From a virus: a stretch of 21,576 nucleotides of DNA. Location: positions 1 through 21,576 of IMG/VR virus record IMGVR_UViG_3300030103_005567. One strand, written 5' to 3'. Each line of letters starts with the position of its first letter. The stretch's first letter is position 1. Below the pieces are notes generated by a model. That model was given only the letters and a program-made list of their open reading frames with translations. It had not been told where the DNA came from and did no database searches. Positions 1 to 20,253 of the stretch are shown one piece after another. The position numbers and the translations under genes are program-made.

Positions 1-205
1 CTCTATTTTCTTTAACGGGACCATCCTTATAGTTTTTGACTTCTCTTTGTAAAATTTCTCTAGGGTAATATCTACCATTACCATTTTTGGTTTGGGCAGC
101 TTGTAACCTACCCGAAACAAGCAAATTGCCTCTTTCGGATGTTTTAGCCTCAGTTAATGCCTGAGGGGAAATTTCAAAAAGTTGAGTCTCTATAAGGGTT
201 TGCAT
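1..205 (-). CDS. Prohead maturation protease, gp21-like (N-terminal part, cut by window edge)
   Basis: About 68 residues are visible before the window ends. The segment LLVSGRLQAAQTKNGNGRYY (residues 28-47), followed by PREIL, matches the opening of T4-like prohead core proteases, where a short beta region leads into an 'xNGNGRxYP' motif. In T4 this serine protease sits in the prohead core, cuts scaffold, capsid and internal proteins after (L/I)-x-E, and then degrades itself. The N-terminus here carries its own candidate site, ALTE|A, at residues 16-20, consistent with self-processing. The start codon overlaps the stop of the upstream gene by one base (TAATG), which fixes the start. Its place downstream of terminase and portal also fits T4 order. 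The catalytic residues lie outside the window, so the family call rests on the N-terminus and context. Confidence 0.82.
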   Translation of the reverse strand, partial: MQTLIETQLFEISPQALTEAKTSERGNLLVSGRLQAAQTKNGNGRYYPREILQREVKNYKDGPVKENR

Positions 206-1236
206 TATTTGCTAGTGTTATAATTAGCTTCGGCAGTCATGTATGCTTTTTCGTATAAGGCAATTTCACTTTGAAGTTCTTTCTTTTTATTCTCATCAAT
301 AAATTCTGATAAGTTAGAATCTTCATTTATGGTACCTAAAGTTTCTTCTAATTCTTTTTTCTTCTTACCATAAACTTCCATCATTACTTTATTTTTAGCC
401 ATTTCACCTAATTTTTCGGCTTTTTTAACTACTTCGTTATAAGTTAATTTACCTTCTTTTTTAGGTTCTTTTTCTTCTTTTTTCATACCTGCTTCTTTTC
501 CTTTTTCGTACTCATAAGCACCGTAGCCTTCTTTAGCTTCTTCTTTTTCTTCATTTAAGAAAGCTTCAAATTTAGATTCATAATTTGCTTTTGTTCGATC
601 AGCAAAAGGATTACCTAATGAAGGTACTCCAGCTACTGCTTCTTCTAATAATTCTTTAAGATCGTTTGATTTACTCATTTTATTTTCTTTTAAGTCTCCG
701 TAGCCGGAGGATTTATATTTTCCTTTTGGTTCTTCTTGTTGTTTTAATTCTTCATATCCTAAACCATCTATTTTAAAGGCAGCATTTTTAGTATAAAAAA
801 TTGGATCTTTTTCTAAGTTTTTAGCAACTACTTTTTTTGCTTCGTCTATAGTTAATTTAGGATCTTTTTCCATTTCAACTCTTAAACCATTTAAATATTG
901 GTCAAATATTTGGTTATCTAAATTTTTAGGATCCTTATAATCGTAAGTTTTTATTTCAGCCTCTTCTACTTCTTTAGTAGTTTTAGTTTCAGTTGCTTTT
1001 ACATCTTCATTTACAAATTTATCAAAGGTTGTAAATGGGTTTAATCCAGAAGAGGGCATTAAAGGAAATATATTTTCACTAATTACACTACGCTGCTTTA
1101 ATAACTTAGCAGTTTGATTAAATGTAGCAGCATTAGGAACAATATCAGGAAACAAACGTTTTGCTTCCTTCATAAATGTATTTTTATGTCCCTTTCCTTC
1201 TTTAATTAAATTATATTGTTCTTGAAGTGTCTTCAT
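205..1236 (-). CDS. Charged head-region protein, possible scaffold/prohead core component
   Basis: A 343-residue protein very rich in Lys and Glu, with long predicted helical or coiled-coil stretches, especially residues 190-340. It lies directly before the prohead protease and two genes after the portal, the interval where T4 carries the small core genes 67 and 68. The N-terminus MKTLQEQYNLIKEGKGHK contains an IKE|G sequence (residues 11-14) of the form cut by gp21-type proteases. Composition, position and cleavage site together suggest a prohead core or scaffold protein, but no domain is recognised with certainty and T4 gp22 lies on the other side of gp21. The start at 1236 is 3 bases downstream of a TATTTATA element. 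Confidence 0.6.
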   Translation of the reverse strand: MKTLQEQYNLIKEGKGHKNTFMKEAKRLFPDIVPNAATFNQTAKLLKQRSVISENIFPLMPSSGLNPFTTFDKFVNEDVKATETKTTKEVEEAEIKTYDYKDPKNLDNQIFDQYLNGLRVEMEKDPKLTIDEAKKVVAKNLEKDPIFYTKNAAFKIDGLGYEELKQQEEPKGKYKSSGYGDLKENKMSKSNDLKELLEEAVAGVPSLGNPFADRTKANYESKFEAFLNEEKEEAKEGYGAYEYEKGKEAGMKKEEKEPKKEGKLTYNEVVKKAEKLGEMAKNKVMMEVYGKKKKELEETLGTINEDSNLSEFIDENKKKELQSEIALYEKAYMTAEANYNTSK

Positions 1237-6838: not shown

Positions 6839-6841
6839 GGC

Positions 6842-6849
6842 GATAAATA
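6842..6849 (-). promoter_or_regulatory. TATTTATC element before the small membrane-protein pair
   Basis: The coding strand reads AAATAATAATATTTATCGCCATG, where the first TAA is the stop of the kinase gene. The element sits 3 bases before the start codon. It is one of eight ATATTTA motifs in the window's gaps. Confidence 0.42.
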
Positions 6850-6852
6850 TTA

Positions 6853-7371
6853 TTATTTAATAGTTTTTAAAATTTGTTGAATACGTTCTTCAGTTGATCC
6901 CTTAATAGTATGAAAAATAGGGCGACATTCAAATAACAATTTTTGAATTTCTTCATCAATTTCTTTTCTATATTCTGCATTTGTTTCACGAATTCCATTA
7001 TCTTCTATTCCTATGCCCTCAGGTGAAATATAAAATATAAAATCATATTGTCTAATAAAACGTTTAGCATATTCTTTAAAAGCATCTCCATCTAAATAAC
7101 TTACTTTTTTAGCACAATTAGTAAAAGCCATTACATCAATAATTGTTCTATCTGTTATAAGATTTTCATACATTAGCTCAGTAACACGTTCAGCTAAAAA
7201 TATAGTTTGACCCTCAATAGTTGTTTCGTGATTTAATGGAATACCTAATGAATTAAGATATTTACTACGTTCAGTAGCAAAATTATACCCATTAAATATA
7301 GGTAATTTTTTTAATTCTTTTACTAGTGTAGTTTTACCTACACTCATTGTTCCTGTAAGTCCTATTTTCAT
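6853..7371 (-). CDS. NadR/AAA_28-like P-loop kinase
   Basis: A 172-residue P-loop NTPase. Walker A is GTMSVGKT at residues 7-14, and an acidic DRTIID segment (74-79) sits where Walker B or the substrate site is found in NadR-type ribosylnicotinamide kinases and related nucleoside kinases. The opening MKIGLTGTMSVGKTTLVKEL and the 'ATERSKYLN' stretch (32-40) also fit that family. It could phosphorylate nicotinamide riboside or a (deoxy)nucleoside; the sequence alone does not separate these. No nucleotidyltransferase domain is attached, though such a domain occurs in the 1012-aa protein of this window. The start overlaps the upstream stop (TAATG). Confidence 0.72.
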   Translation of the reverse strand: MKIGLTGTMSVGKTTLVKELKKLPIFNGYNFATERSKYLNSLGIPLNHETTIEGQTIFLAERVTELMYENLITDRTIIDVMAFTNCAKKVSYLDGDAFKEYAKRFIRQYDFIFYISPEGIGIEDNGIRETNAEYRKEIDEEIQKLLFECRPIFHTIKGSTEERIQQILKTIK

Positions 7372-7628
7372 TATCCTCCTTGTCTTGCTGATTCACGCAT
7401 TGCAGGGTTCTTATACCATGGAACCCCATTTCTATCTCGTTTAATTTCTTTCCACTGTTCTTCAGTATATCTAATCCCATAAATATAATATTCTCTATGT
7501 CGATAGACACCCTCAGGTATTAAAGCAGGTCCTTCCCAATTATGTAATTTACCATCCCAATGGTGTAAGATAGTTCCATCAGGTGTTTTAGTTTTTGTAG
7601 GTGTTGGCCATTTATTATCTTGAGTCAT
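7371..7628 (-). CDS. Small HxxDGPA-repeat-like protein
   Basis: An 85-residue protein with a single unit of the type DG-x-x-x-x-W-x-G-x-x-H-x-x-x-GPA, seen here as DGKLHNWEGPAL at residues 25-36. It is flanked by aromatic residues (HREYYIYG) and followed by EEQWKE. This unit resembles tandem repeats found in many phage and bacterial hypothetical proteins (HREDGPA-type). The function is unknown. Both junctions are TAATG overlaps, so it is co-translated between the flavoprotein and the NadR-like kinase. Confidence 0.6.
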   Translation of the reverse strand: MTQDNKWPTPTKTKTPDGTILHHWDGKLHNWEGPALIPEGVYRHREYYIYGIRYTEEQWKEIKRDRNGVPWYKNPAMRESARQGG

Positions 7629-9142: not shown

Positions 9143-9160
9143 TTTTAATTTAAAGTTGTC

Positions 9161-9168
9161 TAAATATA
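9161..9168 (-). promoter_or_regulatory. TATATTTA element upstream of the flavoprotein gene
   Basis: The coding strand reads CGTATATTTAGAC, 18 bases before the ATG and just downstream of the terminator T-tract. It fits the Bacteroidota -7 consensus TAnnTTTG except for the last base. A TTTG lies 20 bases further upstream, inside the terminator hairpin, a spacing similar to Bacteroidota -33/-7 promoters. It shares the ATATTTA core with the other seven gaps. Confidence 0.45.
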
Positions 9169-9170
9169 CG

Positions 9171-9205
9171 AAAAAAAAGATGTAACCCCAAATTGAGGCC
9201 ACATC
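9171..9205 (-). terminator. Rho-independent terminator after the Hc1-like gene
   Basis: The coding strand forms an 11-bp stem: GATGTGGCCTC, a 5-base loop AATTT, then GGGGTTACATC, with three G-U pairs. It is followed directly by eight T residues. It lies in the 114-base gap between the Hc1-like gene and the flavoprotein gene. It is the only clear intrinsic terminator I see in the window. A weaker hairpin (GGCTAG/CTAGTC, 9226-9246) lies just before it. Confidence 0.85.
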
Positions 9206-9256
9206 TCTCACTTTTTATAAAGATCGACTAGGATATGAATCTAGCCTATATGTTTT

Positions 9257-9427
9257 TTACTTTTTATCTTCAGCAACTGAGGCTTTTCTATATTCTGTTA
9301 CTAATTTTTTTATTTCACCTAAAGCTTTACGAGCTCTTCCGTGTGCTGCTTTAGATTTACCTTCATGTTCAGCTTTAAATGTTCCATATAAAGCATCAAT
9401 TTGTTCAAATAACTCTTGAGTATTCAT
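9257..9427 (-). CDS. Hc1/histone H1-like small basic protein
   Basis: A 56-residue protein that reads MNTQELFEQIDALYGTFKAE, then HEGKSKAAHGRARKALGEIK, then KLVTEYRKASVAEDKK. The layout matches small histone H1-like (Hc1-type) proteins of Bacteroidota: an acidic-amphipathic first helix, a central 'GKSKAAxxRARKALxEIKKL' and a basic second helix. Those proteins are about 55-60 residues and bind DNA. Its start overlaps the stop of the cupin-like gene as ATGA, which fixes the start at 9427, and the gene is followed by the terminator. It may help compact phage DNA or replace a host nucleoid protein. The family call rests on pattern similarity and length. Confidence 0.75.
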   Translation of the reverse strand: MNTQELFEQIDALYGTFKAEHEGKSKAAHGRARKALGEIKKLVTEYRKASVAEDKK

Positions 9428-9675
9428 TTTTTTATAATTTTAATTGTTAATTTTCCGTTTCCTTTTATTACACGATGTAAATATCCACGAGGAATATCAA
9501 ACGTTGTATTTTCTGTAAGTTCAAATGGGAGTTCTTCATCAAATTGAAATTTCCACCCATTTCCTTCTATAACTTCTATTGTTCTATCTTCTTGATCTTC
9601 ATGCCAAATAAGTTCCATAGGGTCTACATCTTCAGCAAATGTTCTTATGTTTGAATTATCTGTATAGGGGTTCAT
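9424..9675 (-). CDS. Cupin-like small protein
   Basis: An 83-residue protein with the pattern ELIWHEDQEDRTIEVIEGNG, WKFQFDEELPF and PRGYLHRVIKG, ending in alternating hydrophobic strands (KLTIKIIKK). Strand-rich sequence, a late PxGxxHR turn and short length suggest a single cupin-like barrel, a type I recall in other marine T4-like phages. The usual full cupin metal set (two His, Glu, His) is not clearly present; H25 and H67 are the visible His residues, so an enzymatic role is doubtful. It overlaps both neighbours (TAATG upstream, ATGA downstream). Confidence 0.55.
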   Translation of the reverse strand: MNPYTDNSNIRTFAEDVDPMELIWHEDQEDRTIEVIEGNGWKFQFDEELPFELTENTTFDIPRGYLHRVIKGNGKLTIKIIKK

Positions 9676-10256
9676 TAACTTACGATATCACTAATTACAT
9701 CTTTAAAAATAGTGTGTACTTCTTTACCTTTAATTAAAGATTTTAAACTATACAAACCACCTTTGAGATAACTAGCTTTTTTAAGATAAGATGCTGCATT
9801 TCCTCCAGCTTGGCCAGCCATCATTAAAATAACTATAGCATAAAGTATTTTAGCTATTTGATCTTGTTTTTTAGGGTCTTTAGTAAATAAGCTAACTACT
9901 CTTCTAATGGGAGCTTGGAATGCTTTTTCATTATCGTGGGTCCACTTATAAATTTTTTCAGCTGCTTCTTTACCAGTACCCCAGTCATGTTTTGTAGCTT
10001 GATTTTTAACAAATTTAGAAAGCATATTTGCTACAGTATTTGATAAAAGGATATATCCAATTATTCCTACTACACCAGCAACTTCATTTAATTCTTCTTC
10101 TTTACCTTCTAATTCGTCTTCAATAGCGTTTGCTAATTGATCTCCTAAAGCATTAAATTCAGCATCAAATGCTTTTTCTTCGGGTCCATTATCTTCTACT
10201 TCCTCTTGAAGTAAAGGATTATTGTAAATGTATGCTTTATAATCGAAATCACCCAT
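9675..10256 (-). CDS. Membrane protein with capsid-targeting-like N-terminus
   Basis: A 193-residue protein using the start MGDFDYKAYIYNN at 10256, which overlaps the upstream stop as TAATG; a start two codons earlier is possible. The N-terminus ends in a candidate gp21-type site LLQE|E (residues 15-19). An acidic stretch (20-57) follows, then a hydrophobic helix VAGVVGIIGYILLSNTVANM (59-78), a basic amphipathic middle, and a second hydrophobic segment ILYAIVILMMAGQAG (137-151). No family is recognised. If packaged as the leader suggests, it could be delivered to the host membrane at infection; otherwise it is an ordinary phage membrane protein. Confidence 0.6.
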   Translation of the reverse strand: MGDFDYKAYIYNNPLLQEEVEDNGPEEKAFDAEFNALGDQLANAIEDELEGKEEELNEVAGVVGIIGYILLSNTVANMLSKFVKNQATKHDWGTGKEAAEKIYKWTHDNEKAFQAPIRRVVSLFTKDPKKQDQIAKILYAIVILMMAGQAGGNAASYLKKASYLKGGLYSLKSLIKGKEVHTIFKDVISDIVS

Positions 10257-10927
10257 TACCAAAAAGTATTCATTTTAGGGCCTAAACCTAACATTGGAGC
10301 GTATCTAGGAAGATTACAACTCCAATATGAGGCTTTCATTCTATCTTTTTTATTGGGACAATCATGTCTTTTAGAAAAAGCATTTCTCGCTTTAGGGTTT
10401 CTAATTTTAGCTTTTAAACCACCAGAACCAAAACGTATTGTTTTAATATTTTTAGTTTTAGGATCTCTAACGTAAACTTTATAAGCCTTACCTCCGGAAG
10501 AAGAGCGCATTGGTTTTCCAATAGGAGGATCTTTTTTCTTTTTCTTTTTATTTTCTTCTAAATCCCATTCATTTAACATAGGTAAATCAAGGGGTACTTT
10601 TTTACCTTCGTAAATCCCAAATTTACCAATGTCAGTATTTTCAATAAGAAATTTACTATTTTCATCTAAGCTAATAGTATCCCACTCAAGGAGCATTCTT
10701 GCTTCAGCAAATAATTGAAGATATTTTTTAGATCCTATTCTAAATACATTTTCTTGCAATGAAATGCCATTCTCGATGTGATAGCGAAGACCTTCGCTTA
10801 TAGGCGCTTTACTCTCTAATAATGCAAGTTTAGGGGGTGTATCATCACAGGTATTACAACCGCATGAACATGATTCCTTGGGTGCTTTAAACCTTTGTAT
10901 TGCTTCTTGAATGTATTGTTTAAGCAT
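10256..10927 (-). CDS. Cys-cluster protein with conserved C-terminal phage module
   Basis: A 223-residue protein. The N-terminus MLKQYIQEAIQRF has a candidate processing site YIQE|A (5-9), followed by a tight Cys cluster CSCGCNTC (20-27). Several further (L/I)xE sequences follow: LLE (36-38), ISE (43-45) and LQE (57-59). After a Lys run (127-132) comes a module at about 134-210: GKPMRSS..GGKAYKVYVRDPKT..., then a segment ending RHDCPNKKDR and YWSCNLPRY. I recall a module of this shape in many marine T4-like phages, often near head genes. The Cys residues C190 and C204 may bind metal. The start is 3 bases after a TATTTATA element. The function is unknown; a capsid-internal role is inferred. 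Confidence 0.6.
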   Translation of the reverse strand: MLKQYIQEAIQRFKAPKESCSCGCNTCDDTPPKLALLESKAPISEGLRYHIENGISLQENVFRIGSKKYLQLFAEARMLLEWDTISLDENSKFLIENTDIGKFGIYEGKKVPLDLPMLNEWDLEENKKKKKKDPPIGKPMRSSSGGKAYKVYVRDPKTKNIKTIRFGSGGLKAKIRNPKARNAFSKRHDCPNKKDRMKASYWSCNLPRYAPMLGLGPKMNTFW

Positions 10928-10930
10928 AGT

Positions 10931-10938
10931 TATAAATA
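10931..10938 (-). promoter_or_regulatory. TATTTATA element before the Cys-cluster gene
   Basis: The coding strand reads ATATAATATTTATAACTATG, with the TAA stop of the upstream gene fused to the element and the start codon 3 bases after it. Exact match to the commonest form of the intergenic motif. Confidence 0.45.
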
Positions 10939-12048
10939 TTATATAATTTCATTATATGAAAGTTCAATATTGTTTCCTTTTAGCTTTCCATCTTTATAGA
11001 GTGTATTTTCAGGTTGAACTAAAGCTCTTAATCCTCCAGTAGCACTTCTAGTGGAATCATGACGTATTCTAAGAACGGGTTGGAGATTAAATTTCTCTAC
11101 ATCTTGAGTGTCTTCAATAATTTTACTCACTTTGATTCTTAAGGTATCTCCTTCTAATGAAAAATCCTTAGGAGAAAAAGTACGGTATATAACAACTGCA
11201 TTGTCACTACCAAAAATAATACTATCAGTATCATCACTAGGAAGATCTGTTACAATTACTCCTGCTACTTTTTGTTGAGTTTGTTTATTAAACATAGTAA
11301 AAATTCCTTCTTTTGTTCTGCCTGCTTGATCTCTAAAAGGAATAAAAGTTAATTCTGGAGCAAATTCTCCTTTTTTTATTTTGTCAGCCAGTGTTGTTAC
11401 TATTTTTTTATATCTAGTATCTGAACTTTCCCAGAATCCAGCATTATCTTTTTTAATAGATATGGCTGCTATTTTATTCTCACCCCTAAAAAAATCTATA
11501 TCAGATTTAGAACCTCCTACAACTTCTAAACCTGTTCCTTTTACATTTGTAAAATTTTGGACAGGATAATTTTTATCAGGACTTATAAATAAAATATTTT
11601 TTGCCCCCTGATCTTGGAATTCTTTTATTTTTTTCTCTAAAAAGTCTTCATTTCCTACTCCCGCTGAGGCTCTTCCCTGAGCACTTTCGGGTTTAAGGAG
11701 AAAAACAACATTTTTATAAGTAATTCCTCCTATTGAGGAACCTTTAATATTAGGGTCATAATCAAACCCCTCAATACCCTCTACTTTTTCTATATAGCTA
11801 TAACGATCAGCTCTTGGTACTAAAATTTTAAATCTTTTAGATGAAATTTCAGTAAATTTATCATCAGTTAAACCTAACTTTGATTTTAAAATATCTATTG
11901 CTTCTTTAGCATCAGAAGATGGAGCTTCTTTAAGTAATGCTTTTAACATCCCCTCTAACATAATCATATCCTGTTCGTTATTAATGTCAGGATATCCCTT
12001 AGGAAATTTATATGAAACTTTTTTTAAAAATTTATCTAATACGTCCAT
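10939..12048 (-). CDS. PD-(D/E)XK nuclease-like protein (tentative)
   Basis: A 369-residue protein. The central part has an arrangement resembling restriction-endonuclease-fold proteins: an early acidic helix GVGNEDFLEKKIKEF (E134), then SKSDIDFF (D183/D185) and, after a short loop, AISIKKDNAGFWESS with K199/K200. This gives a D-x(n)-xIK pattern in place of a classic ExK. The 'SIKKDxAxFWES' segment is something I recall from phage proteins of this type. The C-terminal half is beta-rich. The N-terminal helix contains LLKE|A (38-42), a possible processing site, though farther in than in its neighbours. It overlaps the upstream gene as TAATG. Nuclease activity is a hypothesis from motif spacing. 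Confidence 0.45.
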   Translation of the reverse strand: MDVLDKFLKKVSYKFPKGYPDINNEQDMIMLEGMLKALLKEAPSSDAKEAIDILKSKLGLTDDKFTEISSKRFKILVPRADRYSYIEKVEGIEGFDYDPNIKGSSIGGITYKNVVFLLKPESAQGRASAGVGNEDFLEKKIKEFQDQGAKNILFISPDKNYPVQNFTNVKGTGLEVVGGSKSDIDFFRGENKIAAISIKKDNAGFWESSDTRYKKIVTTLADKIKKGEFAPELTFIPFRDQAGRTKEGIFTMFNKQTQQKVAGVIVTDLPSDDTDSIIFGSDNAVVIYRTFSPKDFSLEGDTLRIKVSKIIEDTQDVEKFNLQPVLRIRHDSTRSATGGLRALVQPENTLYKDGKLKGNNIELSYNEII

Positions 12049-12482
12049 TATGAATTCTCTTTACGTTCTTGCCATTCATAAGACACTTTATCTGTATCAA
12101 TAGGACCACCTGAAGCCCAAGTGTAACAAGATCTTTCGCTATGACATTTAAAGCTATGCATCCAACAATACCCAAGATAACCATCTCTTTGTACTGATCC
12201 AGGCATACACTTAAGCATTCTTTTAGATATATCAAAGGCAACACAATTTTTACATTTAGATTGTTTAGCTACATCAACAGATGTTTTCCAATGCTTTGCG
12301 GCTCTTTCCCAATATTCTTCATCATTTAAATTAAGAGGTCCATATTGAATATAATCAGCTTCAATAGCAGAATTTCTGTTTTTAGTATTTAATTCTAAAT
12401 CCTGGGTTGGAAGGGGGCAGGCCATTACATCTTCATGTAGCTTACCTTCTTTTAAATATTTTCTTAAATTAAAATTATTCAT
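12048..12482 (-). CDS. Cys-rich protein, possible iron-sulfur or zinc binder, with capsid-targeting-like leader
   Basis: A 144-residue protein. The N-terminus MNNFNLRKYLKE|GKLHED has a clear LKE|G site (10-13). The core has seven Cys: C22, C77, C80, C92, C106, C113 and C119. They sit in KCKNCVAFDI, LKCMPG, LGYCWMHSFKCHSERSCYTW, followed by a GGPI turn. The spacing and the aromatic 'GYCWxxxFxC' resemble small high-potential iron-sulfur-like or metal-binding phage proteins, but no assignment is certain. The N-terminus overlaps the end of the upstream gene by 8 bases, and the stop overlaps the next start as TAATG. Confidence 0.6.
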   Translation of the reverse strand: MNNFNLRKYLKEGKLHEDVMACPLPTQDLELNTKNRNSAIEADYIQYGPLNLNDEEYWERAAKHWKTSVDVAKQSKCKNCVAFDISKRMLKCMPGSVQRDGYLGYCWMHSFKCHSERSCYTWASGGPIDTDKVSYEWQERKENS

Positions 12483-12732
12483 CGTTTTTAACTATATCGG
12501 GTTTAGCTCCTTGTGCAGACCTAGATTTGCCTTTTTTAGGTCTAAAATCTTTTTTCTTTTTACCATCGGAACCCTTAATTTGACCTTTACATACTTTAAC
12601 TGCTCTAGCCATTAAAAAAGGATTATGATCTTCACCTTCTCTTTTTCTTTTAGATATGTAATTATAACCCCTTTGACATAATTTTTCAGTAATTATATCT
12701 TCAATTAATTCTGTTAAAGAGATTTTACTCAT
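12475..12732 (-). CDS. Small basic protein with LCxRG/KVCKGQIKG module
   Basis: An 85-residue protein, preferred start MSKISLTELI at 12732, one base after the upstream stop; a start at 12744 would overlap the upstream gene. Residues 1-17 form a leader with LTE (6-8), LIE (9-11) and ITE (14-16) sequences. Residues 18-61 are the module LCQRGYNYISKRKREG...AVKVCKGQIKGSDGKKKK, shared with the C-terminus of the 241-aa protein encoded at 14818-15543. Two Cys (C19, C48) flank a basic helix. The tail is Lys/Arg/Ser-rich. Such basic modules suggest nucleic-acid binding. The function is unknown. Confidence 0.6.
   Translation of the reverse strand: MSKISLTELIEDIITEKLCQRGYNYISKRKREGEDHNPFLMARAVKVCKGQIKGSDGKKKKDFRPKKGKSRSAQGAKPDIVKNDE
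12550..12681 (-). repeat. LCxRG module, copy 1 (coding repeat)
   Basis: Codons 18-61 of the 85-aa protein. They align with codons 197-240 of the 241-aa protein: the shared pattern is LC-x-RG-x-NYI-x-x-RKR-x-G, then VKVCKGQIKGSDGK-x-KK. Third-codon positions have diverged, so this is an old duplication kept at protein level. Confidence 0.8.
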
Positions 12733-12733
12733 A

Positions 12734-13252
12734 TTATAAATCATCTACTGAATCAGGTACCGCGGGTTCTAATTCTGTTTCAGGAGTATCTTCTGTATCT
12801 TCTAAAGCACCAGCTAGACCATCATCTTCAATATCTTCTCCTTTAGGAACAACTGCATAATTATATCTTAGTAGGCGAGCTATAGCTTCTGATGCTTGTT
12901 GTTCTTCTGGGAGGGATTCTAAAAAGTATTTTTTACCTGCTACTTGAGCTATAAATATTCCTTTACCAGCACTTTCACCTTGATAAATTAAGTAAAAATC
13001 AGCTCCATTTACAAGCATAACTCTAAAAGTTGTTGGACGTGGGGCTACCCATTGTATATCTTTTACGAAGGGTTCATATTGAAAATCAAATAAATCATCC
13101 ATAACCGCTTTTAATGGAGGAAATTTATTGATTACTGGGAATTTAGTTACAATATCTTCAATTTCCTTAGCATCAGCTAAAGGATTAGATTTTTCAGCAT
13201 ATACTACTTTTGCTAAATCCTTAATTTTTGCTATGAATTTAGATTTTTGCAT
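12734..13252 (-). CDS. Unidentified 172-aa protein with acidic tail
   Basis: Function not recognised. The first 15 residues (MQKSKFIAKIKDLAK) form a basic amphipathic helix like those starting several neighbours, but without a clear (L/I)xE site. The middle (about 60-135) looks like a compact alpha/beta domain with strands FRVMLVNGADFYLIYQG and KGIFIAQVAGKKYFLESL. The last 35 residues are acidic and probably disordered (EDTEDTPETELEPAVPDSVD). Both ends are closely coupled to neighbours: TAATG upstream and one base to the next gene. It may be a virion component by context only. Confidence 0.5.
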   Translation of the reverse strand: MQKSKFIAKIKDLAKVVYAEKSNPLADAKEIEDIVTKFPVINKFPPLKAVMDDLFDFQYEPFVKDIQWVAPRPTTFRVMLVNGADFYLIYQGESAGKGIFIAQVAGKKYFLESLPEEQQASEAIARLLRYNYAVVPKGEDIEDDGLAGALEDTEDTPETELEPAVPDSVDDL

Positions 13253-14121
13253 TATTCTCTTAATTTCGCAATTGCTCTATCAATACGATTTAATTCAGCC
13301 CCATATCTATCTGCAATTGGTCCCCCCTCTAATTCAGCTTCTTGTTCCATATCCCTCATTAATCGTTCTCTTTCTTTATTAAGAAAACCTAATTTTTTAA
13401 GTTTAGTAAGAGATTTTCTATCTGATTTAGGAGCTGTTTTTTTAATTCTATCTATGGCTTTTTCTGCTTGTTGATCCGCTGACATAGTTGCTCTCATTTT
13501 CATAAGTACGGGATCATTCATCTTTATTTCTTCTCCTAACATAGCATCTATTTGAGGGATTTTTAATTCTCCATCCAAATAGTGCTTAGCTGAGATGAGC
13601 ATTTCTTTTGATTTAATAATTTTGGATTGCCACCAATGAGGGAAATCTACTTCCATTCCGATGTTATCAAAATTATTTACCATTAAATAAAGTTCAGAAG
13701 CATATTTAGCAATTCTATAGAGATCCTTTTTAAGCATATGGGGTTCATTATCTTGGTGACCTAAGTCTAAATCTCCTTCTTTTTGGATAGCTTTAGATAT
13801 TGCTTTTCTACGGTTTTTTAAGTAGTCATCTGTTTTATCTACTTTTCCGTCATTATTTATGTCAGCATCTTCTTTACCTACAGGATCTAATTTTTGTTCA
13901 TCAATAGTATTTACAATTTCTTGTATTTCTTCTAAATCAAAAGCTTTTTTAAATTTTTTCACTTCTTTTTCTTTTTTTTTCATTTCACCTTTAGTAAGTT
14001 TACGCTCATTTTTGGGTGTTTGAGGTTTACCATGCTTAGCCAAATTAGTAGCTAATGCATAAGCCAATGATGTCTTTTCTTTTTTAGACATCTTATCTAA
14101 TTTGGTTTTTTTCTTAGCCAT
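13252..14121 (-). CDS. EF-hand-like protein with conserved phage helical module
   Basis: A 289-residue protein with three parts. Residues 1-60 are strongly basic. At 87-98 is a textbook EF-hand/dockerin-type calcium loop DINNDGKVDKTD (D87, N89, D91, G92, V94, D98), here as a single loop. Residues 123-195 form a helical module opening NEPHMLKKDLYRIAKYASEL and containing DFPHWWQSKI (159-168), which I recall from many marine T4-like phages in virion-associated genes. The C-terminal quarter is helical with dense charges. No catalytic motif is seen. The start and stop overlap neighbours as TAATG. A structural or packaged role is inferred from context. Confidence 0.6.
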   Translation of the reverse strand: MAKKKTKLDKMSKKEKTSLAYALATNLAKHGKPQTPKNERKLTKGEMKKKEKEVKKFKKAFDLEEIQEIVNTIDEQKLDPVGKEDADINNDGKVDKTDDYLKNRRKAISKAIQKEGDLDLGHQDNEPHMLKKDLYRIAKYASELYLMVNNFDNIGMEVDFPHWWQSKIIKSKEMLISAKHYLDGELKIPQIDAMLGEEIKMNDPVLMKMRATMSADQQAEKAIDRIKKTAPKSDRKSLTKLKKLGFLNKERERLMRDMEQEAELEGGPIADRYGAELNRIDRAIAKLRE

Positions 14122-14540
14122 TATGTTTCAGGTGCTATTTTCTTAAATTCAGTTTTAGCTGAAAATTTAGCAGAGTTAAGGATTTGATTAGCCAATTCTG
14201 TTTGGCCTGCATCTTTAGCTTTTTTAGCTAAATCAACTAAACCATCTGTGATATCATCAATAGATGCTTCACCTGTTGGTTCAAATTCAAAGCTTGTTTC
14301 GTCTTCAACATCAAATTCTTCTTCAGTTTCTTGTTCAGTAATTTCAGCTAAAATTTCATTACGAAGATATTCTTTAAATTCAGATCTTTTTATTTTACCT
14401 TCTTCCATATTTCCCATGAGTTCTCTAGTTTTTTCTAATTCAGCATTAAGCTCTTTTTGCTTAGCTATATCCTCATCAGTAGCTTCAGTCATTTTTAAAA
14501 CCTCGTTTTTGAGGTATTCTTTAAATTCGGACTTTTTCAT
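14121..14540 (-). CDS. Acidic helical protein with internal duplication of its N-terminal helix
   Basis: A 139-residue protein. The opening KKSEFKEYLKNEVL (2-15) is repeated as KRSEFKEYLRNEIL at 51-64, with an acidic helix between them. The rest is acidic and then helical (about 94-139). The repeated helix resembles the short leaders of neighbouring proteins and is followed by ITE at 67-69, so it may be a duplicated capsid-targeting-type peptide. In T4, internal proteins carry one such peptide. The function is not recognised. The start overlaps the upstream stop as TAATG, and the stop overlaps the next start as TAATG. Confidence 0.6.
   Translation of the reverse strand: MKKSEFKEYLKNEVLKMTEATDEDIAKQKELNAELEKTRELMGNMEEGKIKRSEFKEYLRNEILAEITEQETEEEFDVEDETSFEFEPTGEASIDDITDGLVDLAKKAKDAGQTELANQILNSAKFSAKTEFKKIAPET
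14349..14390 (-). repeat. SEFKEYLxNE helix, copy 2
   Basis: Codons 51-64 of the 139-aa protein, KRSEFKEYLRNEIL. They match codons 2-15 at 11 of 14 residues. The exact shared core is SEFKEYL. Confidence 0.85.
14496..14537 (-). repeat. SEFKEYLxNE helix, copy 1
   Basis: Codons 2-15 of the 139-aa protein, KKSEFKEYLKNEVL. This is the N-terminal copy of the duplicated helix. Confidence 0.85.
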
Positions 14541-14818
14541 TATTTTTTCTTTTTAAAAGTTGCTTTTTTAGTATTTCTAACAAATTGTTTACCTTTTTTA
14601 CTACCTCTAACTTTTTTAGCTACCGTAGCTTTTCTTTCTGCTTTAGTTAAAGATTGAGCTTTCTTTTTAGGTAAACATCTTGTTGTTGCCTTACCTTTTT
14701 TCATAGTACCACAAGGACCAGTAATATTACCTTGAGTATTAATACGCACCCAGTTTTCTTTTTTAAACCAGTCACGTAAAGACTCTTGAATAACTTCCTT
14801 TATGCGGTCTTGTGTCAT
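14540..14818 (-). CDS. Small very basic protein with capsid-targeting-like leader
   Basis: A 92-residue protein. The leader MTQDRIKEVIQE|SLRDWF has an IQE|S site (10-13). After it come ENWVRINTQGNITGPCG and a second Cys in TTRCLPKKKAQSLTKAERKA (C36, C48), then a tail rich in Lys, Arg, Ala and Thr. The 'WVRI-x-T-x-G-NI-x-GPCG ... RCLP' pattern is one I recall from several marine virus proteins, of unknown function. The net charge is strongly positive, suggesting DNA contact inside the capsid. TAATG overlaps couple it to both neighbours. Confidence 0.6.
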   Translation of the reverse strand: MTQDRIKEVIQESLRDWFKKENWVRINTQGNITGPCGTMKKGKATTRCLPKKKAQSLTKAERKATVAKKVRGSKKGKQFVRNTKKATFKKKK

Positions 14819-15543
14819 TATCCTTTTTTTCTTTTACCGTCAGATCCCTTAATTTGGCCTTTACAAACCTTTACTCCCCTACCTGAAAGGTAGGCAGAGG
14901 ATTTTTCACCTGCTCTTTTACGGGCCGCTATATAATTTTTACCTCTAGCACAAAGACCTTCAGTTAAGTTTTCACCAAGTTTTTTAATTTCTTGGACTTC
15001 CTTTACTATTTCTTCTTTAGTAAGCCCGGGGTTATTTTCCATTACAAATTCTATGGTTTCTTTAAGCCCACCAGGCGTAGTAAGTTTTTTACCTTCCATA
15101 CTTCTATTATACCCACAACTACCTTCTTTACGTAATGTTTTTGAAAGTGTTAAACCTTTTAAGTATTTGCTGTCTGAGGGGGATAACTGTGCCCCGGGTT
15201 TGTCTTTATCTTTATCTTTTCTTCTTAAACGAGCTATTTCTTTATCTATTTTAGAAGTAGGGATTTTTTCTCCTTTTTTAACTCCTAATTTTTTTCTAAT
15301 AGTCCCTTGTTTAAGTTTACCAGTTGCTTTTCCTTTTGCGGAAAATTTTTCAATAGTATCACCCTCTTTCATTACATGTTTATCTAACAGATGCTTTAAA
15401 TCTATTACAAACTTAGTTTTATCATCTATTTCGATTTTTTCTTCATTTACTGGGAATGAAAGAGTAATATCATCAATGGATATTTCTTCTCCTTTATGGA
15501 GTTTATCCATCATATCCTTAGTAATTTGCAGTTTTTTAGCCAT
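14818..15543 (-). CDS. Basic protein with C-terminal LCxRG/KVCKGQIKG module
   Basis: A 241-residue protein. The N-terminal 60 residues are helical and charged. Residues 66-140 form a basic stretch (AKGKATGKLKQGTIRKKLG... through KYLKGLTLSKTLRK) of a kind I recall in other marine phage genes. A short helical segment (158-192) follows, then LTE|G (194-197) directly before the module LCARGKNYIAARKRAG...GVKVCKGQIKGSDGKRKK (197-240). The (I/L)TE sequence also precedes the same module in the 85-aa protein, so cleavage could release the module in both. The function is unknown. The start is 6 bases after a TATTTATA element. Confidence 0.6.
   Translation of the reverse strand: MAKKLQITKDMMDKLHKGEEISIDDITLSFPVNEEKIEIDDKTKFVIDLKHLLDKHVMKEGDTIEKFSAKGKATGKLKQGTIRKKLGVKKGEKIPTSKIDKEIARLRRKDKDKDKPGAQLSPSDSKYLKGLTLSKTLRKEGSCGYNRSMEGKKLTTPGGLKETIEFVMENNPGLTKEEIVKEVQEIKKLGENLTEGLCARGKNYIAARKRAGEKSSAYLSGRGVKVCKGQIKGSDGKRKKG
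14824..14955 (-). repeat. LCxRG module, copy 2 (coding repeat)
   Basis: Codons 197-240 of the 241-aa protein, paralogous to codons 18-61 of the 85-aa protein. The longest shared run is VKVCKGQIKGSDGK. Confidence 0.8.
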
Positions 15544-15549
15544 GTTAAT

Positions 15550-15557
15550 TATAAATA
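15550..15557 (-). promoter_or_regulatory. TATTTATA element before the 241-aa gene
   Basis: The coding strand reads ACATATTTATAATTAACATG. It lies in a 21-base gap, 6 bases before the start codon. Exact 8-mer match with four other gaps. Confidence 0.45.
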
Positions 15558-15564
15558 TGTAAAA

Positions 15565-16143
15565 TTATTTAACTTTCAAATTTTCTAAAAATTCTAGTCC
15601 TTCTTGTAATTCCTGTTCTAATTTTTCTTTACTAAAACCACCTTTCCAACTTTCTACATCTCCCCTTTCTGTGATATAACTTTCACTACTTTCATTAAAT
15701 TTTTCTTCCATAAAATTTTTATATTCTTTTTGAAGATTATTTATATGTTCATTGTGCATGTTGTTGTAATATTCTTCTGCTTTTCCTTCTTTTCTAAGTT
15801 GGGCTTCATAGTCTACAACACAATCAAAACACTTTTGATAAGCCGGGAATACTTTTTTATCAAGATGTTTTTTCATTAAAGTACCACATTCTGGACAGAA
15901 TAAGGGCATATGGCCCATTTTTCTAAATTTGTCCATTTTAGTAATGTTTTGTCTAAGACCATTTTTAATAGTCCAAGTACGTCCATTTTCTTCCCATTCA
16001 TCACCTTCTTTATGATGTTCATATTTTTTAGTATAACCTATCCCCTCAGTAGTACGAGCACTAGTGTTGCCCGTAACAATGTTACGAGCACGTTGTACAT
16101 CTTTTTTAGAGAATTCTTTTTTTAAAACATTATCATTATTCAT
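15565..16143 (-). CDS. Zinc-ribbon-like protein
   Basis: A 192-residue protein with two CxxC pairs: FCPECG (C83, C86) and KCFDC (C105, C108), 18 residues apart, typical of a zinc ribbon. A basic N-terminus comes before it, including EENGRTWTIKNGLRQN. The C-terminal half is helical, and an ITE|R sequence lies near residues 157-160. I recall similar 'CFDC-V-x-x-E-x-x-L-x-x-x-G' zinc-ribbon proteins in other marine T4-like phages, where the function is not known. A nucleic-acid-binding or structural role is possible. The start overlaps the upstream stop as ATGA. Confidence 0.65.
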   Translation of the reverse strand: MNNDNVLKKEFSKKDVQRARNIVTGNTSARTTEGIGYTKKYEHHKEGDEWEENGRTWTIKNGLRQNITKMDKFRKMGHMPLFCPECGTLMKKHLDKKVFPAYQKCFDCVVDYEAQLRKEGKAEEYYNNMHNEHINNLQKEYKNFMEEKFNESSESYITERGDVESWKGGFSKEKLEQELQEGLEFLENLKVK

Positions 16144-16292
16144 CGTCTAAAACCTTTTACTTGTTTTTTAGTTGCTACATCCATCATAGTTTTAAGCATT
16201 AATAATCTTTTTTCAATTAAACCCTGCATTAATTCTAAGGTTTCAATATCAAATTCATTATTAACTGCCTTTATAAAATCTTTAGTCTTCAT
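16140..16292 (-). CDS. Small helical protein (50 aa)
   Basis: A 50-residue reading frame: MKTKDFIKAVNNEFDIETLE, LMQGLIEKRLLMLKTMMDVA, TKKQVKGFRR. It is predicted fully helical with a basic end. It is accepted as a gene because its start lies within an 11-base overlap with the upstream gene, its stop forms an ATGA overlap with the next start, and it exactly fills a space otherwise empty in a compact gene string. The function is unknown. Confidence 0.6.
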   Translation of the reverse strand: MKTKDFIKAVNNEFDIETLELMQGLIEKRLLMLKTMMDVATKKQVKGFRR

Positions 16293-16434
16293 TTTTATAT
16301 GGAAATTTTTGGTTTAATTTTTTTTTACGTTTATCACAACCACAATCCTCACCTACAATTTTACCAAATAAAGATTTAATACCAGTTGCCTTAGTAAATT
16401 TTTCAACTGTATCTCCTAGTCCTTTACTTTTCAT
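16282..16434 (-). CDS. Small CGC-motif protein (50 aa)
   Basis: A 50-residue protein MKSKGLGDTVEKFTKATGIK, SLFGKIVGEDCGCDKRKKKL, NQKFPYKNED. The combination GLGDTVEKFTKATGI plus CGCDKRxxxLNxxFPY is one I recall from small proteins of T4-like marine phages and Bacteroidota phages. The function is unknown; the two Cys may bind metal with a partner. A longer frame opens at 16497, but those residues lie inside the end of the upstream gene, so the start is placed at 16434, overlapping it by 11 bases. Confidence 0.65.
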   Translation of the reverse strand: MKSKGLGDTVEKFTKATGIKSLFGKIVGEDCGCDKRKKKLNQKFPYKNED

Positions 16435-19400
16435 TTTTAATTGAATCTTCCCAATTTCTAAATAAGATATTACCTTGTTCATAGGCCTCACGTTCAATTT
16501 TATCTAAAGCACTATCGGCATTAGTATTTGTAGTTTGACTATGATCTAAAGTATTATTTAAGTTTTGGTGGTGGTGAATTAATTCATGAGCATATGATCT
16601 TAAAATATCTTTAGGATGTCTACCCATAGTATATAAAGCTATTAATTGTTGATTAGGATCATAATAAGCAGTTCTGCCTAAAATGTTTTCAGCATTTTCT
16701 TTATTATCATCAATAAATTTTAATTTAGGATAAGGTTTTAAATTTAAACCATTACTACCCATGTATTGAGTTAATGATAAAATAGAAGGCATTAAATCCT
16801 CTTTTAAAGGTTTATAACCTGATCCATAAGGTGCTGATTTTTGATTATGATTAGGGGCTACATTTTCTGTTATGTCTCTATAATTTGTAGCAGGAGCGAA
16901 AGACTGCATCTTTTTTTTAGCTGCCTCCTTAGTTTTAAAAGGACCAAATGTTTGTCTAATACCCTGACCTAAAGCATCGTCTTGGTCATAATAAAATTTA
17001 CCTCCCTTTTTATAAATTGCTCTATATCTAGTACCTACATTCCCTTTAGCAAACCCACCCTTAATTTCATTGGCCTTCTTTTTTTTCTTTTGGGCCTGCA
17101 AGCGTTTAGTCTTAGCTTTAGAAGCTTCTTTACGTTTTTTAATATAGTTAAAAGCCGTTTGTAAACGTTTTTTCTTTTTAGGATCCTTAGTTCTACTTAA
17201 TGCTGCCCTTACTCTCTGATGTATTAGATTAATTACTTGGGATTGGCGAGCATGTGATTTATTTTTAAATGAGGTTTTAGATAGAGTATCAACTATATCT
17301 TGTCTCGTAGAAAACTTTACTTTTACAGTATCAGTAGGATCCTCATCTGTGTATAAACGTCTACCACTACCTTTAGGTTTTTTACCTGTACCTTTTTTAG
17401 GGTCGGCTTCAGTAAGTTTAAATAGTTTAGCATCTTCGTCACTTAAAGGACCTATTTTAGATACAGGACTACCAAAATGCCAATCTTTAATAATTCTACT
17501 TGAATCAATTTCAAAATCCACTACATGGTATCCCATAGTAGGTTCTTTACTATATTCCCAAGCTAAAGGTTTGGTTTGATATTCAGGTTTATTTTTAGTA
17601 AAATTAGGATAAGCATCTCCCCAAGTAGCAGGAACCCATTTATTATCTTTAGGAATAAGTAAAACTATTTTACCATCTTGGGTTTTAGATACAGCTATTT
17701 TTTTAAAGCCCTTTCCCATTAAAAATTGAACTGAGTTGGCTTCTTTTTCAAATTTAGGATCTATAAACATAGATTGTTGTTTCCAACCATGTAGACCTGC
17801 ATCTTTGCCTCCTGTGTTGGCATGATATGATTTAATTCTTCTAAGTTGGCTAGTAGAATTTTTTCTGACATATTTAGATCCTTGGCTAGTTTCAAAATAA
17901 GTAAAATCTTTAAGATCTACATTTTCATCTATTTGGGCTGCAGGTAAATTCTTTTTAGCATAAGCTAAATATATTTTTTTTATTTTAGCCTCTTCATCAG
18001 GGGTTAATTCATCTACTCTTTCATCCAAGAAATTTTGTAATGCTTGGCTAAAGGATATTTTTCTAGTTTTAGCATTTTTATAAATGCCCTGAACAAAAGC
18101 AGGGATTTCATAATCTAAAGTAAGATAATCTACTAATGGTAAATCCTCTTGATCTACATCACCCGGATAAGCGTCCTTACTAAATCTATATTGTGCTACA
18201 TGTTCTAATTCATGTCTTATAGCATCCTTAAGTTCAGGAATTAATTCACTATAAGCATCTGGGAATTGTGGTTGTTGATAATCTATTTGAATAGCTATTC
18301 CATCCTCATCCCCAGCAGCATTTATTATAAAAGGATTAGGACCTAATGTTTCAAAATCATTAGGAACTAAATAAACCTCTAAATCATAAGGTTCGCCTTT
18401 TAATTCACCGGCATCTTCAAAGTTGTTTTCTACTTTTTCTCCTAATGTGTCTTTAAAATAATTGATTATCATACGAGATATCATTGTTACCTCAGCATCA
18501 TATGTCCCCTCATCAAGTGGTAAAACTTGATTTGAAGTCATAAAATTCTTTTTACGCATAATAGTTTTAGCGATAGCTTTATTAGCTCGCTTCATAAAAG
18601 GAATATTAAGATTACTCTCAGTATCCTTAACTACTACGTCTTTATATTTTCTAAGGAATTCAATAAATGCTTCTTTTTCATCAGCTAATTTATCAAAAAA
18701 TTCTTCTAATTCTTCAATTGAAATGTCTGGAAAGTTTCTAGGGTCATTAAGGCGATCAAAGAAATGATTACCTGAAAGGTCTACATCTATAGGAGCTAGT
18801 TTTCTATCAGCCATATCATCTACAAATTCTACATCACCTTGGGATATAAAATCGGAATTAAATGATATACGTTCTGCAACTATATCTTTAAGCATATCCC
18901 AAATTTCATCTACTTCGGGAATGTCTGGAAGGTATTGAATGAATGCCTCTTTATCTTGGGCTAGTAATGCTTTTCTAGCCTTGGTACCACTTACCGCTCC
19001 ACCTGTTACAATTTGTTTAACTTTTACATTTTGATAAGGAAGTTTACGAAGTGAGCGAGTACGCTTTTCTATATCTTGAAAATCTTCCTCATTTCCCTCT
19101 CGAGCTCCTACAAAAAAATAAATAATTTCATCAGGATTTTTTCTAGCATAAGAATAAATAGCACCAATAGGGGGTTTATCCTTGGGAGAAGCCATTATTG
19201 TTACCTTACTAGGAAGGTATTTTTTATACATGTTCCAAATAGCAAGTGATTCTTCTTGACTTATAGAATCTCTTGTTCCACTTCCTACTAAAATAATTAA
19301 TTCATCTAGCTCAGGATTTTCTTTTAAAGCAAGCTTTACTACTTCTAAATGGCCTGCTGTAGGGGGTTTAAACCCACCACCAAACATACCAACTATTTTT

Positions 19401-19462
19401 CGGTTAGTAGATTCATTCACGTCTATAAGGCCCTCTAATAGTGATTTAACTAAATCATTCAT
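16424..19462 (-). CDS. Giant multidomain protein: nucleotidyltransferase plus two HExxH metallopeptidase domains
   Basis: A 1012-residue protein. Residues 1-15 (MNDLVKSLLE|GLIDV) form a capsid-targeting-like leader with LLE|G. Residues 21-200 form a cytidylyltransferase-fold domain: GGFKPPTAGH (29-38) for the HxGH-type site and SGTKAR (158-163) for the late motif. Residues 205-310 are a helical module (HFFDRLNDPRNFPDISIEEL...). The first zincin domain has HELEH at 417-421 with a possible third ligand E452. Residues 510-680 form an alpha/beta region of unknown fold. A very basic helical region (711-797) follows, then a short strand-rich segment (803-860), and a second zincin domain with HELIH at 959-963 and E991/E994 as possible third ligand. 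Candidate (L/I)xE sites lie between parts: LDE318|G, LTE685|A, ITE866|N and LKE888|D. The start overlaps upstream as ATGA. Confidence 0.8.
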   Translation of the reverse strand: MNDLVKSLLEGLIDVNESTNRKIVGMFGGGFKPPTAGHLEVVKLALKENPELDELIILVGSGTRDSISQEESLAIWNMYKKYLPSKVTIMASPKDKPPIGAIYSYARKNPDEIIYFFVGAREGNEEDFQDIEKRTRSLRKLPYQNVKVKQIVTGGAVSGTKARKALLAQDKEAFIQYLPDIPEVDEIWDMLKDIVAERISFNSDFISQGDVEFVDDMADRKLAPIDVDLSGNHFFDRLNDPRNFPDISIEELEEFFDKLADEKEAFIEFLRKYKDVVVKDTESNLNIPFMKRANKAIAKTIMRKKNFMTSNQVLPLDEGTYDAEVTMISRMIINYFKDTLGEKVENNFEDAGELKGEPYDLEVYLVPNDFETLGPNPFIINAAGDEDGIAIQIDYQQPQFPDAYSELIPELKDAIRHELEHVAQYRFSKDAYPGDVDQEDLPLVDYLTLDYEIPAFVQGIYKNAKTRKISFSQALQNFLDERVDELTPDEEAKIKKIYLAYAKKNLPAAQIDENVDLKDFTYFETSQGSKYVRKNSTSQLRRIKSYHANTGGKDAGLHGWKQQSMFIDPKFEKEANSVQFLMGKGFKKIAVSKTQDGKIVLLIPKDNKWVPATWGDAYPNFTKNKPEYQTKPLAWEYSKEPTMGYHVVDFEIDSSRIIKDWHFGSPVSKIGPLSDEDAKLFKLTEADPKKGTGKKPKGSGRRLYTDEDPTDTVKVKFSTRQDIVDTLSKTSFKNKSHARQSQVINLIHQRVRAALSRTKDPKKKKRLQTAFNYIKKRKEASKAKTKRLQAQKKKKKANEIKGGFAKGNVGTRYRAIYKKGGKFYYDQDDALGQGIRQTFGPFKTKEAAKKKMQSFAPATNYRDITENVAPNHNQKSAPYGSGYKPLKEDLMPSILSLTQYMGSNGLNLKPYPKLKFIDDNKENAENILGRTAYYDPNQQLIALYTMGRHPKDILRSYAHELIHHHQNLNNTLDHSQTTNTNADSALDKIEREAYEQGNILFRNWEDSIKNEK

Positions 19463-20253
19463 GCTAAAAAGGATTTTAATTTAGATTGTGCTTCTTCTCT
19501 AGATACCGAATTATTTACTACATTTTGTATAAACTTATCGTTTAACATAGTTTTTATTTCTTCGGCATCTTTAGCTTTACGAGCATCTGAACTGGCTTGT
19601 TGTTTAGGTGTTTTAGGTTTAGTTCCTTTAGGTTTAAAAGGATCAAGATATATTTTCATTATATCTTCTAAATCCGAAATTTTTTGATCTTCTAAAGTGT
19701 TAGCCACAGAAACAAAATTAGACCCAAATAAATTTTTATATGGTTCATAATTTTGAGTTACATCTTTCCAGGTTTTCATTACAATACCCGGGGCTAAACT
19801 TCTATCTTTACCACCTGATTTTTCGTAACGATCTTGGTTTTGTTTTAAGGAACGTTCTAAATCAGTATAGACATATAACATAAATACTTCATATCCTGCT
19901 TCTTCTAATTGATCTTTTAGTTTAGAAGTTTGATTAAATGAAGCCCCGGTACCATCTAATATAAATGATTCTTTATTACCTATAGTAGAATCTAAATTAG
20001 CTTTAAATTCTTTATTAGCAGCAGCCATAGCCTTAGCTTGATTACTTCTTTCTTCAGGAGTAGCATTTTTTAGGTCTAATGTTATATTAGCCTTTTTTAA
20101 CATAGGAACATAGATATCATCTACGTTTAATGTTTTTAATCCTCCTAAATCTAAACCTCTTAAAGTATATCCTTTCCCAGCTCCAGGAGCACCTGCTAAT
20201 ATAACAGCTTTGGATTTACTTTGTATTTCCTTTAAAATATCGTATAGTTTCAC
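19459..20253 (-). CDS. Zeta-toxin-like P-loop kinase with capsid-targeting-like leader (GTG start)
   Basis: A 264-residue protein. The leader MKLYDILKE|IQSK carries LKE|I (7-10). The P-loop AVILAGAPGAGKGYTLRGL has GAPGAGKG at 21-28. VDDIY (44-48) is placed like the acidic pair of zeta-toxin/adenylate-type kinases, and FILDGTG (97-103) is the second core strand. A LERSLKQNQDR helix (132-142) may be the Arg-bearing lid. After about residue 195 comes a Lys/Pro-rich linker and a C-terminal helix. Zeta-type kinases phosphorylate UDP-sugars, but other substrates (nucleotides, tRNA ends) are known for related folds, so the substrate is open. No ATG fits the domain start; GTG at 20253 gives the leader. 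A TATTTATA element lies 14 bases upstream. Confidence 0.75.
   Translation of the reverse strand: MKLYDILKEIQSKSKAVILAGAPGAGKGYTLRGLDLGGLKTLNVDDIYVPMLKKANITLDLKNATPEERSNQAKAMAAANKEFKANLDSTIGNKESFILDGTGASFNQTSKLKDQLEEAGYEVFMLYVYTDLERSLKQNQDRYEKSGGKDRSLAPGIVMKTWKDVTQNYEPYKNLFGSNFVSVANTLEDQKISDLEDIMKIYLDPFKPKGTKPKTPKQQASSDARKAKDAEEIKTMLNDKFIQNVVNNSVSREEAQSKLKSFLA

Follow-up and report, generated by a model that had tools for sequence, protein, structure and literature searches.

A likely head-cargo gene block with (L/I)xE leaders and predicted prohead-protease sites at polyprotein junctions in a T4-like relative of Flavobacterium phage immuto

We analyzed a stretch of viral DNA of 21,576 nucleotides (the window; positions 1-21,576 of IMG/VR record IMGVR_UViG_3300030103_005567, part of a 25.4-kb virus record), focusing on a minus-strand gene block that runs from 20253 to 9675. 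We consider it likely that this block encodes the head cargo of a T4-like phage, which would be targeted by N-terminal leaders, released by the prohead protease and, where it is made as polyproteins, cut at the module junctions as well. In T4, the internal proteins IPI-IPIII and Alt carry capsid-targeting sequences, and gp21 cuts after (L/I)xE (PMC9026906). By analogy with T4 (PMC9026906), short N-terminal amphipathic leaders would bind the assembling scaffold core and bring the attached proteins into the prohead, where a gp21-type prohead protease (PF03420) would cut after (L/I)xE and free the cargo. With the same signal also placed between polyprotein modules, a single protease should be able to release numerous separate packaged products from a small number of long chains; these would include small, very basic proteins as well as a zeta-type kinase, putative zincin peptidases and a NadD/CoaD-type nucleotidyltransferase. 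As the packaging signal suggests, the released cargo would be delivered to the cell together with the DNA and might there affect host metabolism and defences immediately.

The phage from which the window derives is marine, T4-like and a relative of Flavobacterium phage immuto, which has a genome of 160 kb and was isolated on Flavobacterium sp. LMO8. The two terminases are 59% identical, and the gene order is common to both. Read from right to left, the minus strand of the window encodes a primase, an exonuclease, the block, a few metabolic genes, the terminase, the portal protein, three head proteins and the start of a gp21-like protease. The original prediction had placed such a protease at the left edge; it is indeed encoded there, with only its first 68 residues inside the record. 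In the near-identical contig L004, the genes for the protease, the scaffold and the major capsid protein are complete, and a PF03420 protease was found in all 11 of 11 near-complete relatives. The major capsid protein of that contig (L004:11278-12942) has conserved LLE/G and ILE/N sites (here and below, a slash marks the predicted cut).

All six leaders quoted in the original prediction, namely MNDLVKSLLE/G, MNNFNLRKYLKE/G, MTQDRIKEVIQE/S, MLKQYIQE/A, MKLYDILKE/I and NNPLLQE/E, lie in frame at the N-termini of minus-strand open reading frames, and a seventh, MSKISLTELIEDIITE/K, was found at 12475-12732; a leader is not present on every block gene. In particular, an [LI]xE ending at residue 6-20 occurred in 7 of the 14 block genes (binomial P 0.006 against a background of 17.8%) and in one of the seven neighbouring genes at 6180-9675. 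To the window we then added the genomes of immuto and of four uncultivated, near-complete relatives, each with 160,000 or 156,904 bases, and delimited the cargo/head region by landmark genes. (L/I)xE leaders were present on 84 of 145 genes of this region (58%), compared with 175 of 982 elsewhere (18%; Fisher P 7e-23), and shuffling the residues of the same N-termini gave only 34 expected leaders (z = 10.8). Thus, the enrichment over non-head genes, which had been proposed as a check on the reading, was borne out in each of the five genomes separately (P 7e-4 to 4e-8). It also held for the immuto cargo genes after removal of the known head genes (13 of 23 vs 34 of 205, P 6e-5). These counts use the plain gp21 motif, because significance was lost with a strict hydrophobic-spacing expression for leaders. 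Furthermore, the leaders behaved as exchangeable units: within one genome, very similar leaders occurred on proteins with non-matching bodies (13/927 vs 8/4242 pairs, P 9e-6), as exemplified by MKKSELVKLIKE, MKKSQLRQIIKE and MKKSQIVKAVQE. Only this within-genome count was used, since a first cross-genome count included diverged orthologs. The leader of the 12048-12482 protein is likewise of the FDLRKYL type, which is common to unrelated proteins of relatives, and the leader LxE of the zeta-type kinase was present in 7 of 7 non-redundant N-terminal relatives.

Glutamate-rich linkers and amphipathic, glutamate-rich helices at the N-terminus could in principle produce such a pattern on their own in a low-GC phage. 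[LI]xxE was also raised in the leaders, less strongly (z 6.6), as any amphipathic helix would give. Composition-keeping shuffles failed to reproduce the (L/I)xE pattern (z 10.8 and 10.9), non-head proteins of the same genomes lacked it, and [VM]xE, [FYW]xE, [AST]xE and [LI]xD/Q/N showed no enrichment in leaders. At the polyprotein junctions described below, moreover, [LI]xxE, [LI]xxxE and [LI]xD were all at expectation, and we therefore regard a compositional origin as extremely unlikely.

The large block proteins of relatives consisted of the same modules in changing order, with 50 multi-module architectures among the loci collected, and modules that are separate leader-bearing genes in some phages were fused in others. 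For example, in relative G009 the zeta kinase and the nucleotidyltransferase form one 1112-amino-acid (aa) chain with a seam that reads GLSE/FLVNNILNE/, whereas in the window each has its own leader-bearing gene; the WVAP protein, fused behind SELKEIMLEAYIEVLQE/ in immuto gene 192, has a gene to itself in the window; and the HFFDR module, fused in the window, is encoded on its own and with its own leader (MKKSQLRQIIKE/A) by immuto gene 191. Among non-redundant cases, 173 of 219 internal modules had an [LI]xE at most 35 aa upstream, compared with 32% of control windows in the same proteins. (L/I)xE was found at 87% of 185 junctions, and its density was 27.3 per 1000 aa in junctions compared with 6.6 in module cores; for other motif spacings, junctions and cores differed just 1.2- to 1.3-fold or so. 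Within the cores (HVEN module excluded), the motif fell to 0.47 of expectation (z -8.1), which is expected of proteins that meet the protease; the controls, [LI]xxE in cores (1.02) and (L/I)xE in other proteins of the same genomes (1.08), were not depleted. For the DPKK module, in 13 of 20 cases the glutamate stood at a distance of 3-5 aa ahead of where the module begins, whatever module preceded. In the AlphaFold model of the 1012-aa window protein, the leader formed a helix (residues 2-12), and sites 318, 513, 685 and 866 lay in or beside low-confidence linkers. Thus, the placement of (L/I)xE at junctions together with its depletion from cores suggests that the head protease cuts the cargo polyproteins into separate injected proteins.

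Two other explanations accept the leaders and differ on the cutting. First, the leaders might target and be removed while the junction LxE are leftovers of gene fusion, so that the polyproteins would be injected uncut and perhaps split later by their own zincins. Most of the N-terminal evidence fits this equally well, candidate zincins are present in the polyproteins and processing of polyvalent proteins by zincins has been proposed (Iyer et al. 2017, PMC5512222), and the virion RNA polymerase of phage N4 is packaged uncut despite a peptidase domain. We nevertheless judge it improbable, as the junction site keeps a fixed distance ahead of the module and the motif is halved inside modules, whereas relics of fusion should be lost over time and would not lower the motif frequency in the cores. 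Second, the N-terminal helices might be scaffold-docking signals alone, with LxE as an uncut docking surface. An aspartate placed at position 10 of T4 IPIII stops processing while targeting remains (PMC9026906), and therefore docking and cutting are separable. However, [LI]xD was neither enriched in leaders or junctions nor depleted in cores, the pattern matches the needs of a protease at P3 and P1, and docking leaves the depletion inside modules unexplained; this explanation thus appears very unlikely.

Published proteomics of more distant T4-like cyanophages supports the packaging of such proteins that the original prediction had proposed, with the reservation that about half of the block genes are without a clear leader. 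Mass spectrometry of purified S-CREM2 virions detected a cytidylyltransferase, an S-adenosylmethionine hydrolase, a kinase, a Cas9-like protein and several hypothetical proteins (PMC10665884 Table 3). Among others, the N-termini of S-CREM2 virion proteins read MKNFSSFLTE/A, MKDFDSFLEE/F, VKRFDAFLTE/E, MKDLHSFLTE/Q and MKKLISE/L. Of the ten virion proteins outside structural gene blocks, nine carried the motif and the tenth ended in MAE, compared with 21 of 180 non-virion genes (P 1.7e-7). Purified S-SCSM1 virions contain a nicotinamide mononucleotide adenylyltransferase (NMNAT) and proteins from neighbouring genes (PMC9602691); the NMNAT begins with MKSFLQFLKE/A, and its virion neighbours with MDSKTFNSLSE/A and MATVAETLLALNE/I. 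Relationships at the level of modules were also found: virion-detected S-CREM2 gp160 contains the RCLRIA module (hidden Markov model (HMM) 3.2e-9), which directly follows ISE/ in cargo of the clade, and virion-detected S-SCSM1 gp92 has PHROG 4359, 38880 and 3326 in common with the window gene at 13252-14121. A closer, HMM-level kinship of the clade nucleotidyltransferase with S-CREM2 gp154 was not supported, as the HMM did not match gp154; the two have only the broad superfamily in common, through Pfam CTP_transf_like (weak for the window protein) and GxxxPPxxGH. Separately, the Cas9-annotated S-CREM2 gp12 (L369:7704-10313), present in virions, has a leader-like start, ...FASFMAE/A, and may be a packaged nuclease. 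In cyanophage Syn30 (L366:6973-7139), the reading frame of the second annotated 'cytidyltransferase' (7139-8176) continues upstream of its annotated start, which is probably placed too late; the missed part encodes LDPVGKEDSDVNNDGKVD..., a motif also present in the window gene at 13252-14121.

Several observations weigh against the proposed reading. A canonical N-terminal leader was missing in block genes 14121, 12734, 13252, 14818, 15565, 16140 and 10939, just 7 of 21 stand-alone WVAP proteins had the leader motif, and a Zn-ribbon protein and others were further exceptions. Residue 183 and several other LxE sites of the 1012-aa protein lay within confidently folded parts of the model; residue 183 is thus a weak candidate. 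LxE was not depleted (1.20) in the mature form of the major capsid protein, although this protein is likewise exposed to the protease, and therefore depletion is no universal mark of protease exposure. Moreover, the likely last pro-region (maturation) site of the clade major capsid protein reads VxE, so the exact specificity may differ from that of T4, with V accepted at P3; since [VM]xE was 2.8-fold enriched at junctions and depleted in cores (0.68), the clade protease perhaps accepts V or M at this position. As for the virion data, the S-CREM2 cargo set was picked by gene position after the data had been seen, and P was 0.008 with all 28 non-structural virion proteins; both groups of authors cautioned that virion proteins could be co-purified (PMC10665884, PMC9602691). 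For immuto and its close relatives, our literature search found no proteomic study of virions, the Baltic phage paper being concerned with other phages.

The features of the block and of the neighbouring head genes are compiled in Table 1. The 1012-aa protein is ordered as nucleotidyltransferase, HFFDR, putative zincin, an uncharacterised part, basic DPKKGTG and second putative zincin. Because of its NadD/CoaD fold, which rests on the structural model, the nucleotidyltransferase likely performs nicotinamide adenine dinucleotide (NAD) or coenzyme A (CoA) chemistry. The putative zincins are two modules with HExxH in their sequence, and the Pfam match, to Peptidase_M91, is weak (0.021, below the cut-off). 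The guess that HFFDR is a BECR/RelE-type nuclease was not supported, as a good model gave no PDB match at E <= 0.001. This module is shared with Sinorhizobium phage phiM12 and Methylophilales phage Melnitz, in which the stretches examined around it contained no comparable leader-rich block. Several modules are very basic (isoelectric point (pI) 10.1-11.3), as would be expected for DNA-associated internal proteins. The HVEN module is the opposite of all other modules, with about 5.7 (L/I)xE per 100 aa in relatives; it may be a core or propeptide part that is shredded ahead of the basic YVRDP module, as if degraded like the T4 core protein gp22.

Table 1. Features on the minus strand of the window, from right to left; residues are those of the 1012-aa protein.
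Feature	Coordinates	Strand	Details
Zeta-toxin-type P-loop kinase	19459..20253	-	Pfam Zeta_toxin 6.5e-16; GTG start; leader MKLYDILKE/I at 20227-20253
1012-aa putative cargo polyprotein	16424..19462	-	leader MNDLVKSLLE/G at 19433-19462
NadD/CoaD-fold nucleotidyltransferase, residues 23-165	18968..19396	-	AlphaFold confidence (pLDDT) mostly 80-90; Foldseek NadD/CoaD TMt up to 0.83
(L/I)xE DIPE/V, residue 183	18914..18922	-	between nucleotidyltransferase and HFFDR; weak candidate site
HFFDR module, residues 231-311	18530..18772	-	AlphaFold pLDDT 88.5
Predicted junction site LPLDE/G, residue 318	18509..18517	-	low-pLDDT linker directly ahead of zincin B
Putative zincin metallopeptidase module B (RHELEH), residues 322-503	17954..18499	-	HExxH motif; module HMM
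Predicted junction site QIDE/N, residue 513	17924..17932	-	edge of low-pLDDT segment 513-595
Predicted junction site KLTE/ADPKKG, residue 685	17408..17416	-	low-pLDDT linker; E about 4 aa ahead of module in most relatives
Basic DPKKGTG helical module, residues 689-793	17084..17398	-	stretch 686-866 pI 10.5
Predicted junction site DITE/N, residue 866	16865..16873	-	disordered 857-882
Predicted junction site PLKE/D, residue 888	16799..16807	-	ahead of zincin A
Putative zincin metallopeptidase module A (AHELIHHHQN), residues 908-1006	16445..16741	-	HExxH motif; module HMM
Gene without N-terminal leader	14818..15543	-	C-terminal basic module GLCARGKNY... (pI 10.6) after NLTE/ (14959-14967)
Small basic putative cargo protein	14540..14818	-	mature pI 11.3; leader MTQDRIKEVIQE/S at 14783-14818
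YASE module and dockerin-like DxNxDG motif	13252..14121	-	no N-terminal leader
WVAP-domain protein	12734..13252	-	leader-like helix, non-canonical VVYAE
Basic LCAR-type putative cargo protein	12475..12732	-	leader MSKISLTELIEDIITE/ at 12685-12732
Putative cargo protein without assigned identity	12048..12482	-	leader MNNFNLRKYLKE/G at 12447-12482
HVEN-YVRDP putative cargo protein	10256..10927	-	leader MLKQYIQE/A (10904-10927), LxE-rich HVEN region, then basic YVRDP module
Putative cargo protein without assigned identity	9675..10256	-	leader ending NNPLLQE/E at 10203-10256
Head/core-type protein outside block	205..1236	-	homolog of immuto gene 200; 15 LxE sites; leader MKTLQE/QYNLIKE/ at 1198-1236
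gp21-like prohead protease, ends at record edge	2..205	-	PF03420 E 0.0019; PHROG 207 5.6e-9; leader ...SPQALTE/ at 149-205

Some further observations concern the block and its surroundings. The dockerin/EF-hand-like motif DINNDGKVDKTDxYLxxRR recurs in the window gene at 13252-14121, in cargo of Flavobacterium-type phages and in cyanophages, and may bind calcium. Between the block and the terminase, the window encodes a FAD/NAD oxidoreductase without a leader (7628-9211), and such a gene was found at this position in 45 of the 81 related loci having a terminase (about half). In immuto, the region at 18-37 kb (L084) contains the 7-deazaguanine pathway genes QueC/D/E, FolE, QueF and DpdA, which suggests modified DNA in the phage genus.

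On balance, and with more reserve than for the block itself, we favour the view that in a large marine and freshwater T4-like clade the prohead serves as a maturation chamber, in which polyproteins would be cut into enzymes and DNA-binding-type proteins for injection, and that the (L/I)xE leader predicts injected proteins, including those of cyanophages. If so, a short sequence rule would predict, from genomes alone, the proteins carried into the cell before phage gene expression, and many 'hypothetical' genes beside the terminase would become candidate first-strike effectors, among them a nucleotidyltransferase of NAD or CoA type, which is of interest in connection with defence based on NAD. 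The tailed-phage head would gain a proteolytic polyprotein maturation familiar from RNA viruses, and the recurrence of nucleotidyltransferases in cyanophage virion proteomes would be explained. The isolate immuto makes this reading directly testable.

The proposed system resembles T4 IP/Alt in its short N-terminal leader ending in (L/I)xE, in its protease family (PF03420) and in a cargo that takes in both small basic proteins and enzymes; the cyanophage leaders (MKNFSSFLTE) resemble the T4 IPIII type. It differs from T4 in that the block beside the terminase has several times more cargo genes and multi-module polyproteins with internal sites, in its nucleotidyltransferase, kinase and putative zincin cargo, and in its Flavobacteria-type hosts. 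Among the Pfam and PHROG matches there were no homologs of IPI-III or Alt, and the claim is therefore one of the same mechanism, not of the same protein family. Like the polyvalent proteins of phages and conjugative elements (Iyer et al. 2017, PMC5512222), the block proteins are large and multi-domain, contain candidate zincins, lie near packaging genes, are predicted to be injected and have modules reshuffled among relatives, with several enzymatic domains per chain in variable combinations. The processing proposed for polyvalent proteins relies on embedded zincins or, in a few, a C-terminal assemblin-type domain, whereas the block junctions carry predicted sites for a separate prohead protease and stand-alone modules carry leaders. 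The virion NMNAT/cytidylyltransferases of S-CREM2 and S-SCSM1, detected by mass spectrometry (PMC10665884, PMC9602691), belong to the same enzyme superfamily, are encoded in or beside head genes, and have an LxE leader and related neighbour modules; these systems differ in having mostly single-domain genes, and the portions of the two reports consulted do not mention the leader. Phages phiKZ, 201phi2-1 and SPN3US likewise package ejection proteins and have several propeptide sites, and their distantly gp21-like protease cuts after xxE (PMC10052503), but their motif is S/A-x-E or AxE, and the cuts remove propeptides, with separation of enzyme modules unreported (PMC10052503). In the open-licence literature, we found no prior description of polyprotein processing by a prohead protease or, for marine phages, of capsid-targeting sequences. 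Each of the three elements, namely T4 capsid-targeting leaders, polyvalent proteins and virion NMNATs, is already known; what appears to be new, judging from this literature, is their union, with leader-coded cargo on such a scale and predicted prohead-protease sites at the junctions of polyproteins. The polyprotein aspect did not feature in the original prediction.

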